From Micromonospora inyonensis (lineage in GTDB: Bacteria > Actinomycetota > Actinomycetes > Mycobacteriales > Micromonosporaceae), in NCBI RefSeq assembly GCF_900091415.1, contig NZ_FMHU01000001.1:2976001-3040000 (forward strand): a stretch of DNA of 64,000 nucleotides, given 5' to 3'. Under the pieces are notes generated by a model. That model saw only the letters and a program-made list of their open reading frames with translations, did no database searches and was not told where the DNA came from. The translations under genes and the position numbers were made by a program. Shown in pieces: positions 2,845 to 57,426 of this stretch (positions are counted from its first letter, which is position 1; every line of letters starts with the position of its first letter).

Positions 2845-3951
2845 ATGGGTGGATCCCCCCTGCGCATTCTCGTCGTCGGCGCGGGCATCGCCGGGCTCGC
2901 GGCGGCCCGGGCCCTGCGAATGGCGGGATACCGCCCGGACGTCACCGAGCGACGGACCGTCACGGAACCGCCGGACAGTGGCCTCTACCTCCCCGGTAAC
3001 GCCGCCCGCGCACTGCGCCGGCTCGACCTCGACCTGCCCGTCCGTCCACTCGGGCAGGTGATCCACCGGCAGCGGTTCCTCGACGCCGCCGGCAGTGAAC
3101 TCTGCGAGGTCGACCTGAACCGGCTCTGGGCCGGGGTCGGCGAGTGCCGGGCCCTGCCCCGCAGCGACCTGCACCGCGTCCTGCTCACCGGGGCCGGCGG
3201 GGCGGTCCACCACGGGGCCGAGGTGCGCACCCTCGACCTCGCGGCCGACGCGGTCACCGTCACCTTCGGAGACGGCACCGTCACCGAGTACGACCTGGTG
3301 ATCGGTGCGGACGGCCCCCGGTCCGGCGTGCGCACGCTCGCCGCGCTCGGCGGTCCGGCCCGTCCGGCCGGTCAGATCGTCTACCGGGGGATGGTCCGGG
3401 GCGGGCCACCGGTGGCCGAGTGGACCGCCCTGCTCGGCCAGCGCGCCGGGTTCGTGGTCATGCCGGTCGGCGGGGGACGGCTCTACTGCTACGCCGACGA
3501 GGTCGGCACCACGCCGCCGGCCGACCCGCTGGCCCGGCTGCGCGAGGTGTTCGGCTCCTACGGCGGTCCGGTGCCCCGGGTGCTCGACGCCCTGGACCGG
3601 GTGCACGTCGGGCCCACCGACGAGGTCGAGCTGGGTCGGTGGTCCCGGGGGCGGGTGGTGCTGGTCGGCGACGCCGCGCACGCCACCGCGCCGACGCTGG
3701 CCCAGGGGGCGGCGATGGCACTGGAGGACGCGGTGGTGCTCGCCGAGTCGCTGCACGCCGCCGGCAGCGTGGAGTCGGCGCTGGTGGCGTACGAGAGCCG
3801 CCGCCGGCCGCGTACCAAGTGGGTGCGGGACCGCACCCGCGACCGCGACCGGACCCGGGACGTCCCCCCGGCGCTGCGCGACCCACTGCTGCGCGGGCGG
3901 GGCGGGCGCATCTTCCAGGAGCACTACCGGCTGTTGGTCGATCCGCTGTGA
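2845..3951 (+). CDS. FAD-dependent (class A flavoprotein) monooxygenase
   Basis: 368 residues. The ATG at 2845 is chosen because GGAGG lies 11 bases upstream and the Rossmann strand follows at once (GAGIAG at residues 12-17). The DG motif ([12 protein letters not shown]) and the FAD-ribityl GD motif ([26 protein letters not shown]) are intact, so this is a salicylate- or p-hydroxybenzoate-hydroxylase-like enzyme that uses NAD(P)H and O2. The substrate is not predictable. Residues near 325-345 are strongly Arg/Asp rich ([15 protein letters not shown]). It lies upstream of ctaD with about 140 bases between and is probably a separate transcript. Confidence 0.9.
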
Positions 3952-4093
3952 GCCCCGACCAGCCGACGGCTGCAGGGCGTGTCCGACCACCCGGCGCGGC
4001 GTGTCGACCTGCCGGGGACTATCCTTCCTTCGGACTACGGCTCGCAATTACCAGCGCGTGCCGAGGGGGACGAACGAGAACCGGAGGCCACTC

Positions 4094-5854
4094 GTGACCA
4101 CCGTCGCACCCAAGCCGGTCGTGACCCGGCCCTGGCCGGTCCGAGAGCCGGTGAAGGGCTCGGCCATCGCGCGGATGCTGCGTACCACGGACGCGAAGCA
4201 GATCGGGATCATGTACATGGTCACCGCTTTCGTGTTCTTCATGATCGGTGGCCTGATGGCCCTGATCCTTCGCGCCGAGCTGGCCCGTCCCGGCATGCAG
4301 TTCCTCTCGCCGGAGCAGTACAACCAGCTCTTCACCATGCACGGCACGGTGATGCTGCTCTTCTTCGCGACGCCGATCGTGTTCGCCTTCGCGAACTACG
4401 TGGTGCCGCTGCAGATCGGTGCCCCGGACGTCTCGTTCCCCCGGCTGAACAGCTTCGCCTACTGGCTCTTCCTGTTCGGCGGGACGATGGCCCTGGCCGG
4501 CTTCCTGACCCCCGGCGGCGCGGCCGACTTCGGCTGGACGGCGTACACGCCGCTGAGCACCGAGGCGCACTCCCCGGGCATCGGGGCCAACATGTGGGTG
4601 GTCGGCCTGGCCATCTCCGGTCTCGGCTCCATCCTCGGCGCGGTCAACCTGATCACCACGATCCTGACCCTGCGCGCCCCCGGGATGACCATGTTCCGGA
4701 TGCCGATCTTCACCTGGAACATGCTGGTCACCAGCCTCCTGGTGATCCTGGTCTTCCCGCTGCTCGCCGCCGCGCTCTTCGCGCTCGCCGCCGACCGCAT
4801 CCTCGGTGCGCACGTGTTCAGCCCCGACACCGGCGGACCGATGCTGTGGCAGCACCTCTTCTGGTTCTTCGGCCACCCCGAGGTGTACATCATCGCGCTG
4901 CCGTTCTTCGGCATCATCACCGAGATCATCCCGGTCTTCTCCCGTAAGCCGATCTTCGGCTACAAGGGACTGGTCGGCGCGACGATCGCCATCGCCGGCC
5001 TGTCGATGAGCGTGTGGGCGCACCACATGTTCGCCACCGGTCAGGTGCTCCTGCCGTTCTTCAGCTTCCTGAGCTTCCTGATCGCCGTGCCGACCGGTAT
5101 GAAGTTCTTCAACTGGATCGGCACCATGTGGCGGGGCCAGGTCAGCTTCGAGACGCCGATGCTCTTCGCGCTCGGCTTCCTGGTCACCTTCCTCTTCGGT
5201 GGTCTGACCGGTGTGCTGCTGGCCAGCCCGCCGCTCGACTTCCACCTGCACGACTCGTACTTCGTGGTGGCCCACTTCCACTACGTGCTCTTCGGCACGA
5301 TCGTGTTCGCGGTCTTCGGCGGCATCTACTTCTGGTTCCCGAAGATGTTCGGCCGGATGCTCGACGAGCGCCTCGGCAAGGTGCACTTCTGGCTGACGAC
5401 GATCGGCTTCCACACCACCTTCCTGGTGCAGCACTGGCTCGGCAACGAGGGCATGCCCCGGCGGTACGCCGACTACCTGCCCAGCGACGGCTTCACCACG
5501 CTGAACATGATCTCGACCATCGGTGCGTTCATCACCGGTATCTCGACCCTGCCGTTCATCTACAACTGCTGGAAGTCGTACAAGACCGGTCCGGTGGTCG
5601 AGGTGAACGACCCGTGGGGCCACGGCAACTCGCTGGAGTGGGCGACGAGCTGCCCGCCGCCGCTGCGGAACTTCGACCGGATGCCCCGGATCCGCTCCGA
5701 GCGGCCGGCGTTCGACGAAAAGTTCCCCGAGCTGGCCGCCGGCCAGTCGCTGGCCGGGCCCCCCGAGGGTGGTGCCAAGCCGCTGACCAGCGAGTCCGAC
5801 GGTGGCGCCACCTACCAGGAGGACACCGCCAGCGACCTCGACCGGAAGAACTGA
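4094..5854 (+). CDS. ctaD: Cytochrome c oxidase subunit I (aa3 type)
   Basis: 586 residues from a GTG at 4094, preceded by GGAGG at 4083-4087. This is the multi-helix haem-copper oxidase core: [14 protein letters not shown] holds the low-spin haem ligand, [10 protein letters not shown] and the following WAHHMFATG hold the CuB histidines, and [17 protein letters not shown] holds the haem a and a3 ligands. It reduces O2 at the end of the respiratory chain in the plasma membrane. The C-terminal extension (about 60 residues, acidic and Gly-rich) is typical of actinobacterial CtaD. No ctaC or ctaE is adjacent, as in organisms where ctaD is monocistronic. A strong hairpin follows the stop. Confidence 0.97.
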
Positions 5855-54022: not shown

Positions 54023-54098
54023 GCGCCGCTAGCTCAACTGGCAGAGCAGCGGACTCTTAATCCGCGGGTTCGGGGTTCGAGTCCCTGGCGGCGCACCA
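54023..54098 (+). tRNA. tRNA-Lys (anticodon CUU)
   Basis: 76 bases. GCGCCGC acceptor pairs with GCGGCGC; anticodon stem GCGGA/TCCGC encloses CTCTTAA (CTT, reads AAG); T-arm GGGGTTCGAGTCCC; CCA encoded at 54096-54098. It marks the left edge of the accessory region. Confidence 0.97.
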
Positions 54099-54107
54099 GC
54101 AGCAAGG

Positions 54108-54139
54108 CTCTGACGCGAAGATTCCCCTTCGCGTCAGAG
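54108..54139 (+). terminator. Hairpin terminator of tRNA-Lys
   Basis: 13-bp perfect stem (54108-54120 and 54127-54139, CTCTGACGCGAAG arm) with 6-base loop, directly left of the insertion elements. Confidence 0.8.
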
Positions 54140-54153
54140 GTGGTTGCGTAGTT

Positions 54154-54655
54154 TCATGATGCGTTTTCCAGGGTGACGTGGTACCCCATGGCTTCGAGTT
54201 GATGGATGGCTCGCTTCTTGGATCGGTCCGGGTGCAGGCGGGTGAAGTAGTCAGCGCCGGGGTCGTCGTAGAAGGCGCCGGTGGTGCCCATGTGCCAGAT
54301 CGCGATGAGCATGGAGTGTTGGATGGCTACGTTGGCCTTCTGCGGTCCGCGACGTGAGGCGATACGCCGGTACCGGGCGCCGAGATAGGTCCGGGGGTTC
54401 TGGGAGCACGCCATGGCCGCGGCTCCTAGCGCTCCCTGGAGGTAGGGGTTGCCGGGGCGGGTTCGGCTGGACTTCACCTTGCCCGCCGATTCGTTGTTGC
54501 CTGGTGTCGTGCCGGCCCACGAGGCCAGGTGCTTGGCGGTCGGGAAGCGGGTCATGTCGGCGCCGGTCTCGGCGATGATCACGTCGGCGGTGAGGACACC
54601 GATGCCAGGGATGGAGCGGATCAGGTCACGGAAGCCCTGAAAGACATCCCAGGAG
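54154..54655 (-). pseudogene. IS110-family transposase A, C-terminal part
   Basis: Encodes the Tnp_20 domain of an IS110-type recombinase: SIPGIGVLTADVIIAETG, FPTAKHLASWAGTTPGNNESAGK (with the catalytic serine in NESAGK), AMACSQNPRTYLGARYRR and a terminal AIHQLEAMGYHVTLE. It lacks its N-terminal RuvC-like half, which lies beyond the inserted element at 56144-56891. Joining the two halves across one CT core gives an uninterrupted 415-residue protein, so the break is due to insertion, not decay. Confidence 0.92.
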
Positions 54656-54663
54656 CTTGAATG

Positions 54664-55908
54664 TCAAGCAGCAGCCTCGTTGAGGTGATGCGACCAGGCG
54701 GTTGCCTCGTCGTACGGGGTGCCGGTTTTGAGGCATCCGTGCAGGATGCCGACGAGTCGGTTGGCGAGCTGGCGCAGCGCGGCGTTGTAGCTGGCGCCGC
54801 GGGCGCGTTGCCGGTCGTAGTAGGCGCGGGCGCCCGGGGAGGCCTTCAACGCGGAGAACGCCTGGGTCATCAGCGCGTCGATGAGCCGGTCGTTGTGCAC
54901 GAACCGGGCCGCGACGGTCCTCTTCTTCCCGGACGCGCGGGTGATCGGGCTGGTCGCGGCGTAGTTCTTGCGGGCCTTCGCCGAGACGTAGCGGGCGTGG
55001 TCGTCACCGAACTCAGCGAGCACCCGGGCACCGAGAACCGTGCCCAGTCCGGGCTGGGACAGGATGATCTCAGCGTCCGGGTGCCGGCCAAAATGGGCCT
55101 CCACCTGCCCCTGCAGGACCTTGACCTGCTCGTTGAGGGTGGACAGCAGCGCGATCAGCGCGCGGACCGAGGCCGCGTAGGCGGCGGTGACCACGGCGGG
55201 CTGGCCGAGGTGCTCGGCGCGCAGCGTGGTCTGGATCGCGGCCGCCTTGGCCGGAATGTCACGCCGGCGGGCCCGTTTGAGGGCCGCGCTGATCTGCGCC
55301 AGGCTCAACCGGGCGGCGCTGGCCGGGTCCGGCGCCTTCGCCAGGAGTTCCAGGGTGTCGGCGGCGTCGAGGTCCTCGAACGCGGCGAGGGCGGCCGGGA
55401 AGTACTCCCGCAGCGCATGCCGCAGCCGCTGGCCGGCGCGGGTACGTTCCCAGATCAGCGTCTTGTGCATCCGCGAGACGACCTTGACCGCCTCCGCATC
55501 AGCGCTGTCACCGGCCATCGGGCGCAGTTGGTGCGAGTCGGTACGCACCATGTCCGCCAGCATGTGCGCGTCCGCCGCGTCGCTCTTGGCCCCGGACACC
55601 GCCAGGCGCTCCCGGTAACGGGCCGCCTGCAACGGATTCACCGGATACACCGTGTATCCGGCGGCGACCAGCGCTTGTACCCACGGACCCCGATCGGTTT
55701 CGATACCGATCCTCACCCGCCCGGACACGTCCTCGGCATCGATGTCGTCACCGAGCGCCTGACCGATCATCGCGTGCAGCCTCGTCATGCCCGCCATGCC
55801 TTCCGGCAGTCGGGCCTTGGCCAGCCGGCGACCGGACGCGTCCATCACCTCGACGTCGTGGTGGTCCTCCGCCCAGTCATCTCCCACGAACAGCAACACG
55901 TCTCCCAC
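54664..55908 (-). CDS. IS110-family DEDD transposase (element B)
   Basis: 414 residues from GTG 55908. N-terminal RuvC-like DEDD domain (LLFVGDDWAEDHHDVEVMDASG, IGIETDRG, VSGAKSDAADAHMLADMV), coiled-coil middle, and C-terminal Tnp_20 domain (SQPGLGTVLGARVLAEFGDD, NYAATSPITRASGKKRTVAARF) with the catalytic serine in TRASGK. Full length with no defects, so it is probably active. It differs strongly from transposase A and belongs to another IS110 subgroup. Confidence 0.95.
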   Translation of the reverse strand: MGDVLLFVGDDWAEDHHDVEVMDASGRRLAKARLPEGMAGMTRLHAMIGQALGDDIDAEDVSGRVRIGIETDRGPWVQALVAAGYTVYPVNPLQAARYRERLAVSGAKSDAADAHMLADMVRTDSHQLRPMAGDSADAEAVKVVSRMHKTLIWERTRAGQRLRHALREYFPAALAAFEDLDAADTLELLAKAPDPASAARLSLAQISAALKRARRRDIPAKAAAIQTTLRAEHLGQPAVVTAAYAASVRALIALLSTLNEQVKVLQGQVEAHFGRHPDAEIILSQPGLGTVLGARVLAEFGDDHARYVSAKARKNYAATSPITRASGKKRTVAARFVHNDRLIDALMTQAFSALKASPGARAYYDRQRARGASYNAALRQLANRLVGILHGCLKTGTPYDEATAWSHHLNEAAA

Positions 55909-56145
55909 CTTCCGAGCCGATCACCTTCGGTAGCCAGGAGGAGAACCATCAGCGACCTAATGAAGCAGTGCTCACGCCGCGACCGGGCGGGCACGACATC
56001 CCATCAGCGATCAACTCTCCACACCGACCGACAGCGGCACGCTCTTTCATCAGGACTCCACGTCCAGGCACCACGAGTGCTCGCCTGCCGGCGGCTACCT
56101 ACCCACCAGGAGTTTGCCGGATGGCTCACTCCCAGAACTCATTAG
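55909..56145 (-). ncRNA. Candidate bridge RNA region of element B
   Basis: 237 non-coding bases upstream of the transposase in the element's left end. Read on the minus strand, GTGGAGTCCT (56061-56052) matches the left target plus core ATGGAGCCCT with two G-U-compatible changes. TTCATTAG (55964-55957) is complementary to the element's own first bases CTAATGAG with one wobble. These fit a left target guide and a right donor guide of an IS110 bridge RNA. A right-target guide may be GGAG near 56018. The 10-mer TCGCTGATGG occurs twice in the region. RNA ends and folding were not computed. Confidence 0.5.
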
Positions 56146-56891
56146 GGCTCCATCATCACCTCGATCCGCTCGGTGAGCATGTTGATCGCTGCCGTATGCC
56201 GGTCGATCAGGTCCAGGTGCACACGGGCGAGGAACGCGTGGTGCTCGGTGAAGCGGCCGTTCAACGCTTCGGTCAGCTGCGGGATCTTTGACCGGAGCCG
56301 ACGCCGGGCCAGATCCGCGAGCGCGGCCGGGTCCCTGTCACCACCGATCAACGCCTCCAACATCGCCCGCCCGGACACCCCGAGGATGTCGGACGCGACC
56401 GCGGACAGCTTGATCCCGGCGTCCTCCAGCAGTTTCTCCAGCCGCTGGACCTCTCGGCCACGTTCCCTCGTGATCGCCGCACGTGTCCGGGTCAGGTCCC
56501 GCAACTGGCGGATCGGCTCGGGCGGCACGAACGAGCCCCTCACCAGGCCGTGCGCACCGAGTTGGGCAAGCCAGGTCGCGTCCGCTACATCGGTCTTGCG
56601 TCCTGGCAGCGTCTTCACATGCCGGGCGTTGACCAGCATGACTTCGAAGCCGGCGTCTTCGAGCAGGTAGTAGAACGGCTTCCAGTAGTCGCTGGTCGCC
56701 TCCATCACCACGCACGTCACCTGCTGATCGACCAGATGCTCACGCAACGTGAGGATCTGGCTGGTCATCGACCCCCAGGTCGTGACCGTCTCGGTCGTCT
56801 TACGACGACCAGCCCCAGCGATCCGGACGCACACCTTGGCGTCCTTCTTCGAGATGTCCATCCCTGCACAGCGGGCGTGAACGACTTCCAT
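56144..56891 (-). pseudogene. IS110-family transposase A, N-terminal part
   Basis: From ATG 56891: VVHARCAGMDISKKDAKVCVRI starts the DEDD catalytic domain, followed by VVMEATSDYWKPFYYLLEDAG, LPGRKTDVADATWLAQL and the coiled-coil section ending RIEVMMEP. The frame then enters element B and stops at once. Together with 54154-54653 it forms 416 codons including stop, with no remaining frameshift. Confidence 0.92.
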
Positions 56892-57426
56892 GACCAGCCT
56901 CCTCACACGCGGACCACAGCGTCCGTCGCGGGGAGGGCAGGGAGATTCGAAAGTCTGACGCACGGGCTCACTGGCACCAATCCACGGTTCCCGTGGAAGC
57001 CCTCCGCCACCATGCTGACCTACAGGCTCATCAGCACCACAGAGCATTCGGGGTCGACCACGACGAACCCCACCACCATCCGCCCGAACACAGCCGGACC
57101 ACAACCAGCAACCGGCGCCGAATCTTCGCGCACCATGGTGCGCCTCGAAGACGGCGCCGCGTTGCTGACCTGGGGTTTCACCCGGGTCGGAGCCTTTCTC
57201 GTTTCCGTGCCGATGGTCCGGTGCTCGGCGGGTGCTCGGGAGCCGTTGGACGGGTCGCCGCTCGTTGGGACGCGGTGAGGTCACCGGGGACGGCGGCTGT
57301 CACGCGGTGTACCTGTGAAAGGGGTCGGCGTGGAGGGCTGTGGGCGAGGGTGGGCGTTGAGTGGAAGCGGCAGTCGGCGTCATTTTCTGGGGTCGACGCC
57401 TTGCGGTCCGGTCGTAGGATGCGCGC
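56892..57426. other. Non-coding end of element A and adjoining spacer
   Basis: 535 bases without a supported gene. The part next to the transposase should contain element A's left end and its own guide RNA. An imperfect 45-base palindrome at 57114-57158 (GGCGCC at both ends, GCACCATGGTGC centre) may be a structured part of it or the boundary with host DNA. Beyond about 57170 no structure was recognised. Confidence 0.45.

Follow-up and report, generated by a model that had tools for sequence, protein, structure and literature searches.

Results

Element B interrupts a second IS110-family element

The window, a 64,000-nt stretch of Micromonospora inyonensis DNA, carries on its minus strand an IS110-group insertion sequence, here called element B, which lies within the transposase gene of a second IS110-family element, element A (Table 1; the core CT is given in brackets). 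B comprises a recombinase gene with 237 nt of non-coding DNA at its left and ~20 nt at its right, and the CT core is present at both of its ends, in the copies from the same genome as well as in relatives; the interrupted site in A reads ATGATGGAGCC[CT]TTCAGGGC. In the window, a tRNA-Lys gene (54023-54095) lies ~14 bp from the end of A; a search of the 11 kb surrounding a second copy of the composite A(B) (L178) gave no tRNA. Beside A, positions 57189-57201 of the window hold GGAGC[CT]TTCTCG, the short site that B occupies in L003; it is empty here, and the outer flank is similar, not identical, to that of L003.

Table 1. Coordinates of elements A and B and of their parts in the window
Feature	Coordinates	Strand	Sequence or basis
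Element A, second IS110-family element, interrupted by B	54109..57170 (approximate ends)	minus	composite found twice; Pfam
Transposase halves of A	~56894-56146 and 54635-54154	minus	Pfam PF01548, PF02371 on the two halves
Left target ATGGAGCC[CT], inside A transposase gene	56144..56153	minus	
Right target [CT]TTCAGGG, inside A transposase gene	54635..54643	minus	CTTTCA pairs with RTG
Element B, IS110-group insertion sequence	54642..56145	minus	[CT]AATGAGTTCTGGG ... CAAGCTCCTGGGATGT[CT], both core CT copies counted
Left end of B (RD)	56138..56145	minus	[CT]AATGAG
Right end of B (LD)	54642..54651	minus	TGGGATGT[CT]
Element B recombinase, 414 aa	54664..55908	minus	Pfam, NCBIfam, IS621 alignment
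-35-like TTGACA at right end, overlapping the recombinase stop codon	54662..54667	minus	
Upstream non-coding end of B	55909-56145	minus	237 nt
Bridge RNA body: target-binding loop and donor-binding loop	55933..56099	minus	covariance model R1
LTG, GUGGUGC and core CU, 5' side of target loop	56066..56074	minus	pairing with left targets
Apical hairpin GGAC-GUGGA-GUCC of target loop	56053..56065	minus	helix 2 of consensus
RTG, UGAUGAA and core complement AG, 3' side of target loop	56044..56052	minus	pairing with right targets
LDG, UGGGAUGUC, same sense as B right end	55995..56003	minus	matches TGGGATGT[CT]
RDG, CUUCAUU[AG], complementary to B left end	55957..55965	minus	8 contiguous pairs, covariation

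Ends, copies and recombinase of element B

The junctions of B copies that occupy different sites in the same genome place its limits at [CT]AATGAG and GGGATGT[CT], and many actinobacterial relatives agree. The copies that share these ends and differ in their flanks are five full ones at four sites and two partial ones: L001 to L005 are full-length at 100% identity (L002 is the window copy), and further matches in the genome are L006 with L011 (together one interrupted copy), L010 (left end only) and L007 (89%), alongside more distant or shorter ones. The end searches assumed CT at the right and CTAAT or CCAAT at the left. A right boundary at CCT, implied by a previous interpretation of this DNA from its letters (the sequence-only reading), is ruled out by the junctions of copies elsewhere: L003, L004, L005, L007 and L011, together with the relatives, give GGGATGT[CT] instead. 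Because the copy junctions fix the ends of B, the sequence GGGATGTCT downstream of the recombinase gene belongs to B and not to A.

A DDE-transposase element with terminal repeats GATCCTGGTGGTTAATT interrupts a B copy at L058 (~3185-5107; own genome C2:3091184-3093106). At L179 (~3631-3855; own genome C1:1963630-1963854), the left end of B stands alone, 100% identical and with its bridge RNA intact; it stops just before the recombinase gene and is followed by an IS3-like transposase with rve and HTH_21 domains. It is possible that this left end is an orphan bridge RNA.

The recombinase of B matches Pfam PF01548 (1.4e-34) and PF02371 (8.7e-11) as well as NCBIfam NF033542 (171.5 bits; cutoff 140), and it aligns to IS621 (8wt6; E 3.4e-10). 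Residues D11, E70, D110 and D113 (DEDD) and the serine S326 align to their IS621 counterparts; D110 and D113 were numbered by counting from S105 of their motif, and the other residues from located motifs. Catalytic roles of the DEDD and serine residues are described in the available text of PMC11208158. A DEDD RuvC-like domain and an IS110 Tnp domain with the catalytic serine are thereby both recognizable from the sequence.

A two-loop bridge RNA in the left end of B

The proposal of the sequence-only reading that the non-coding left end of B is a bridge RNA of the IS110 type, with two loops, is borne out by a covariance model, a consensus structure and guide-target covariation. The model (R1) and its alignment (A1) were made from the left ends of 58 elements, kept from 99 at below 93% identity and including the window sequence. 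R1 matches the RNA body listed in Table 1 with 174.1 bits (E 5e-34), which is its only match in the window at E up to 1, and it gives ten matches in the genome of the organism; the match is confined to the long left end of B, and the right end is short.

The consensus shows two stem-loops with internal loops. Besides a basal stem, it contains a target loop that bears an apical hairpin, and a donor stem in which a separate loop and an apical stem can be recognized. RNAalifold proposed 36 pairs; three within the donor loop were excluded and 33 counted. The proportion of paired cells in these 33 pairs is 96.7%, vs. 90.8 ± 0.3 in shuffles and 42-53% when the pairing partners are slid by 1-3 columns; 21 of the pairs have changes on both sides (shuffles 9.1 ± 1.8); and none of 500 alignment shuffles reaches any of five structure measures. 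Folded as a single sequence, the bridge RNA is not more stable than its shuffles (z -0.57, +0.40), and single-sequence folding was kept out of the evidence. Searches of Rfam gave no match at gathering score in the whole window except two tRNAs, and no match at a credible E-value in 55850-56200.

Guides of the target loop covary with insertion sites

Guides and targets were taken from 115 element entries, of which 15 were dropped (six duplicates or distant IS110 matches and nine without a readable bridge RNA); the 100 elements with a readable RNA provide 86 distinct pairs with a readable left target and 68 with a readable right target. The relatives include one from viral contigs, and plasmid matches were left out; L113 (left target probably misread) and L139 and L080 (hairpin probably misplaced) were retained. 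Pairing was scored without the core and compared with 20,000 shuffles, from which relatedness among guides was not removed.

The target-loop guides covary with the insertion sites: LTG pairs with the left target at 5.45 of 7 positions (shuffled 3.45 ± 0.12; 86 distinct pairs), RTG pairs with the right target at 5.34 of 7 (shuffled 3.42 ± 0.13; 68 distinct pairs), and none of the 20,000 shuffles is as high in either comparison. In register, LTG matches at least 6 of 7 positions in 50 of the 86 pairs vs. 6.7% of mismatched pairs, and at most 4 of 7 in 17 of the 86. LTG pairing increases from 60% at position -7 to 94% at -1; RTG pairing stands at 100, 97, 100 and 91% at +1 to +4, and then at 57, 32 and 56% (68 distinct pairs). 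Guide and target also change jointly in relatives, where the right target CTGACC is found with RTG GGGTC[AG], and CTCAGA with RTG GATCTG[AG].

The sequence-only reading had named two strings as guides, GTGGAGTCCT (56052-56061) for the left target and TTCATTAG (55957-55964) for the end of B itself. Both exist on the minus strand; the first does not have the role given to it. At the window site, GTGGAGTCCT is indeed compatible at 10 of 10 positions with ATGGAGCC[CT] to the left of B (two of them wobble-type; 8 of 8 outside the core), and fits better there than does LTG at 56066-56074. Over 85 distinct pairs, however, its pairing is at shuffle level (3.86 of 8 vs. 3.93 ± 0.09; 15,993 of 20,000 shuffles as high), and in the own-genome copies L003 to L006 the same stretch reaches 3-5 of 8. 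Nor is it open: GTGGAGTCCT covers the loop of the apical hairpin (56053-56065), the 3' strand of the stem and one further base, so that nine of its ten bases lie within this closed hairpin, where 97.4% of cells are paired and two of four pairs are changed on both sides. A closed stem at this place is an outcome that the sequence-only reading had itself named as refuting its guide. GAGTCC is, moreover, the consensus of the 58 sequences although their targets differ. In the register of GTGGAGTCCT, 19 of 7140 mismatched guide/target combinations reach 8 of 8, and for a reader choosing among ~230 start positions we estimate ~0.6 chance matches of this quality. That GTGGAGTCCT could be the left target guide of B is, in our judgement, scarcely credible.

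Donor guides match the ends of B, which together form a promoter-like string

The second string, by contrast, was correctly assigned: TTCATTAG, within RDG, pairs with the first bases of B, CTAATGAG, at 8 of 8 positions (one G-U), as had been proposed, and it covaries with the left end. Across 94 elements, 2.82 of three variable positions pair (shuffled 2.21 ± 0.05), and across 29 distinct pairs 2.59 (shuffled 2.09 ± 0.09), with none of 20,000 shuffles as high in either set. In most elements RDG forms eight contiguous pairs with the left end, and it varies together with the variable base that follows CTAAT.

The match of the donor guides to their own ends is clear for RDG and present in most elements for LDG. 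The variant GGGGTGT is common to LDG and the right end in five of five elements with both readable; three elements count against the match, with GAC in LDG and GTC at the right end, and because right ends were located with the pattern TGGGVTGWCT, this is a weak test of LDG.

Among 73 predicted circle junctions, 56 have TTGACA exactly 17 nt before TCTAAT, and 14 more have TGACAN there, which is what TTGACA at a distance of 18 nt would give. This spacing arises only when the ends of B are joined in a circle.

Sites of B lie within and outside IS110 transposase genes

Identical copies of B occupy six distinct sites in the genome. Two of them, a minority, are in IS110 transposase genes (A and L005); the others are L003, which flanks a fragment of A, L004 in a calcineurin-like phosphoesterase gene (PF00149, 2.1e-12), L006/L011, and L010. 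The left targets score 3 (A), 6 (L005), 5 (L003), 6 (L004), 7 (L006) and 5 (L010) of 7 with LTG; all six share only the C before the core, and [CT]T[TC]C follows where the right side is readable.

These sites bear on a further proposal of the sequence-only reading, namely that B recognizes IS110 transposase genes as such. B could on that account be dedicated to parasitizing such genes, as two of the six sites and one more copy adjoining an A fragment might suggest, and there is a precedent in ISEc21, which targets codons around a catalytic residue of IS3 transposases according to the available text of PMC11187229. The two transposase sites differ, however, in position and have opposite orientation; the remaining copies, with the same guide, are in the phosphoesterase gene and elsewhere; and in the 900-nt flanks of 100 elements (95 left and 75 right flanks), a search able to detect only relatives of A and B found A/B protein matches at six elements (L001, L002, L003, L005, L024, L128). 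The proposal is not supported by these observations, and we consider a dedication of B to IS110 transposase genes highly improbable.

Phytohabitans flavus has five copies with the same left target (L129-L133) and Prauserella flavalba has three copies (L101, L102, L103). These relatives of B lie inside genome-repeated sequences that their guides match; in the 60-nt flanks of three of each, the repeats are apparently non-coding.

The insertion of B into A

The composite A(B) is found twice in the genome, and the flanks of the two copies diverge outside about 54109-57170. Between these limits there are three substitutions in A and no difference over 1507 bp of B; given this lack of difference in B, the two composites may stem from one insertion that was later copied. 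The uninterrupted A site is absent from 160 genomes of the genus, with up to three mismatches allowed, and the empty site is therefore reconstructed from the reading frame only. Uninterrupted sites colinear with the L004 site occur in 9 of 61 genomes at 2-3 mismatches, all nine with CG or CC in place of the core CT; it is at this one type of site that the absence of a target duplication is seen.

The left target in A pairs with LTG at 3 of 7 positions in register and at 6 of 7 when one C beside the core is bulged, a value that 2.7% of mismatched pairs attain. In L091, a second such case, the score goes from 2 of 7 in register to 7 of 7 with the bulge. As a bulge lifts just 2 of 17 poor matches to at least 6 of 7 (0.46 expected), this interpretation of the A site is suggestive only. 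Durrant et al. describe, in the available text of PMC11208160, off-targets of IS621 at which an insertion in the target sequence seems to be tolerated.

The weak in-register pairing at the A site might also mean that the bridge RNA is real, and that B nevertheless entered A unguided, by homologous or illegitimate recombination; with no difference in 1507 bp of B between the two composites, a single original event would suffice. We regard an unguided entry as very unlikely, since A and B meet exactly at the CT core on both sides, the right target CTTTCA of A fits RTG, the bulged LTG pairing is rare among mismatched pairs, and the IS621 off-targets offer an apparent parallel. The insertion of B into A was probably near-cognate, and the fit is best when one target base by the core is bulged.

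A possible deletion scar

At L177 (~4121-4125; own genome C1:3051621), the core of the B target marks a joint between a 5' fragment of A and the putative excisionase end of an actinomycete integrative element. The putative integrase that would belong to this element is missing (best match 64%); both gene names come from our reading of the translations. The putative integrase of relatives begins at this junction, which, intact and in the orientation of B, reads RTGGWGC[CT]TTCAC in five of seven relatives and has CC there in the other two. RTGGWGC[CT]TTCAC scores 6-7 of 7 with LTG; its CTTTCA pairs with RTG, which reaches 7-8 of 9 including the core. Not one of the 5721 CT positions in the window combines an LTG score of at least 6 with pairing at all of +1 to +4.

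The guides of B might on these grounds fit the excisionase/integrase junction better than the present sites of B, and a B-guided recombination between this junction and the A site might have left a deletion scar; we hold this combined scenario to be unlikely. For the L177 joint to form, about GATGGAGC(C)CTTTCA must be common to A and the integrase site. The LTG fit of that site is therefore not an independent observation, and simple microhomology, without B, may also have produced the joint. None of the 86 distinct left targets is a B insertion at an excisionase/integrase junction. A reciprocal exchange between A and the integrase site was rejected: the genome lacks GATGGAGCNTTYCA, which would mark either the reciprocal joint or an integrase-type site that is intact, and a deletion therefore fits better.

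Discussion

Our analysis makes it very probable that element B is an IS110-group insertion sequence whose left-end bridge RNA works as in IS621, and that its insertion into A is near-cognate and no evidence of a programme for IS110 genes. The available text of PMC11208160 already sets out the features that define bridge RNAs, among them a covariation of guides and targets over 5,511 target pairs, so that B joins a known class. No description of B itself was found in the literature searched, which is no proof of absence.

B resembles IS621, as far as the available parts of the published accounts describe it, in several respects: the bridge RNA is in the long left end; guides lie on either side of each of its two internal loops; the guides include the CT core, the left guides addressing the bottom strand and the right guides the top strand; the joined ends, which reconstitute a promoter in IS621, carry a promoter-like string in B (all PMC11208160); and the recombinase is of the DEDD and serine type (PMC11208158). 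The two differ in that the B recombinase is distantly similar (E 3.4e-10) and longer (414 residues vs. 328 in the deposited IS621 chain), and in their guides and targets, the RTG of B pairing at +1 to +4 in 91-100% of 68 distinct pairs.

ISEc21, with its seekRNA, is a known IS110 element with a transposase-gene target, being found in IS3-family genes. In the available text of PMC11187229, its guide RNA comes from the upstream non-coding region, and it is found in transposase genes of another insertion sequence without target duplication, as is B. The target of ISEc21 is described there as a conserved region of certain IS3-family transposases, whereas that of B is a short motif in differing sequences. 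With the IS1111 group, B has the recombinase family in common; the IS1111 RNA is in the right end according to the available text of PMC11208160, whereas the RNA of B is in the left end and its right end is ~20 bp.

By analogy with IS621, excision of B would join its right and left ends into a circle, across which the predicted junction promoter (TTGACA - 17 nt - TCTAAT) would form and transcribe the bridge RNA. In the target loop, LTG GUGGUGC[CU] would act on the left bottom strand and RTG UGAUGAA[AG] on the right top strand, which corresponds to a predicted site type GTGGTGC[CT]TTCA, a pairing that the comparison of relatives supports. In the donor loop, LDG UGGGAUGUC and RDG CUUCAUU[AG] would pair with the joined ends of the element itself, which comparison supports as well, for RDG above all and least for LDG. 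The DEDD/serine recombinase would then swap strands at the CT core without target duplication, as its homology to IS621 and the colinear uninterrupted relatives at one site lead us to expect.

In conclusion, element B adds a well-resolved actinobacterial family of bridge RNAs, for which comparison alone is enough to read the target guides, the donor guides and the promoter string at the junction. A pitfall is exposed as well: a 10-nt match between guide and target in a single copy can be a chance match within a closed hairpin. The insertion in the window is, in addition, a candidate natural case of bulge-tolerant targeting.
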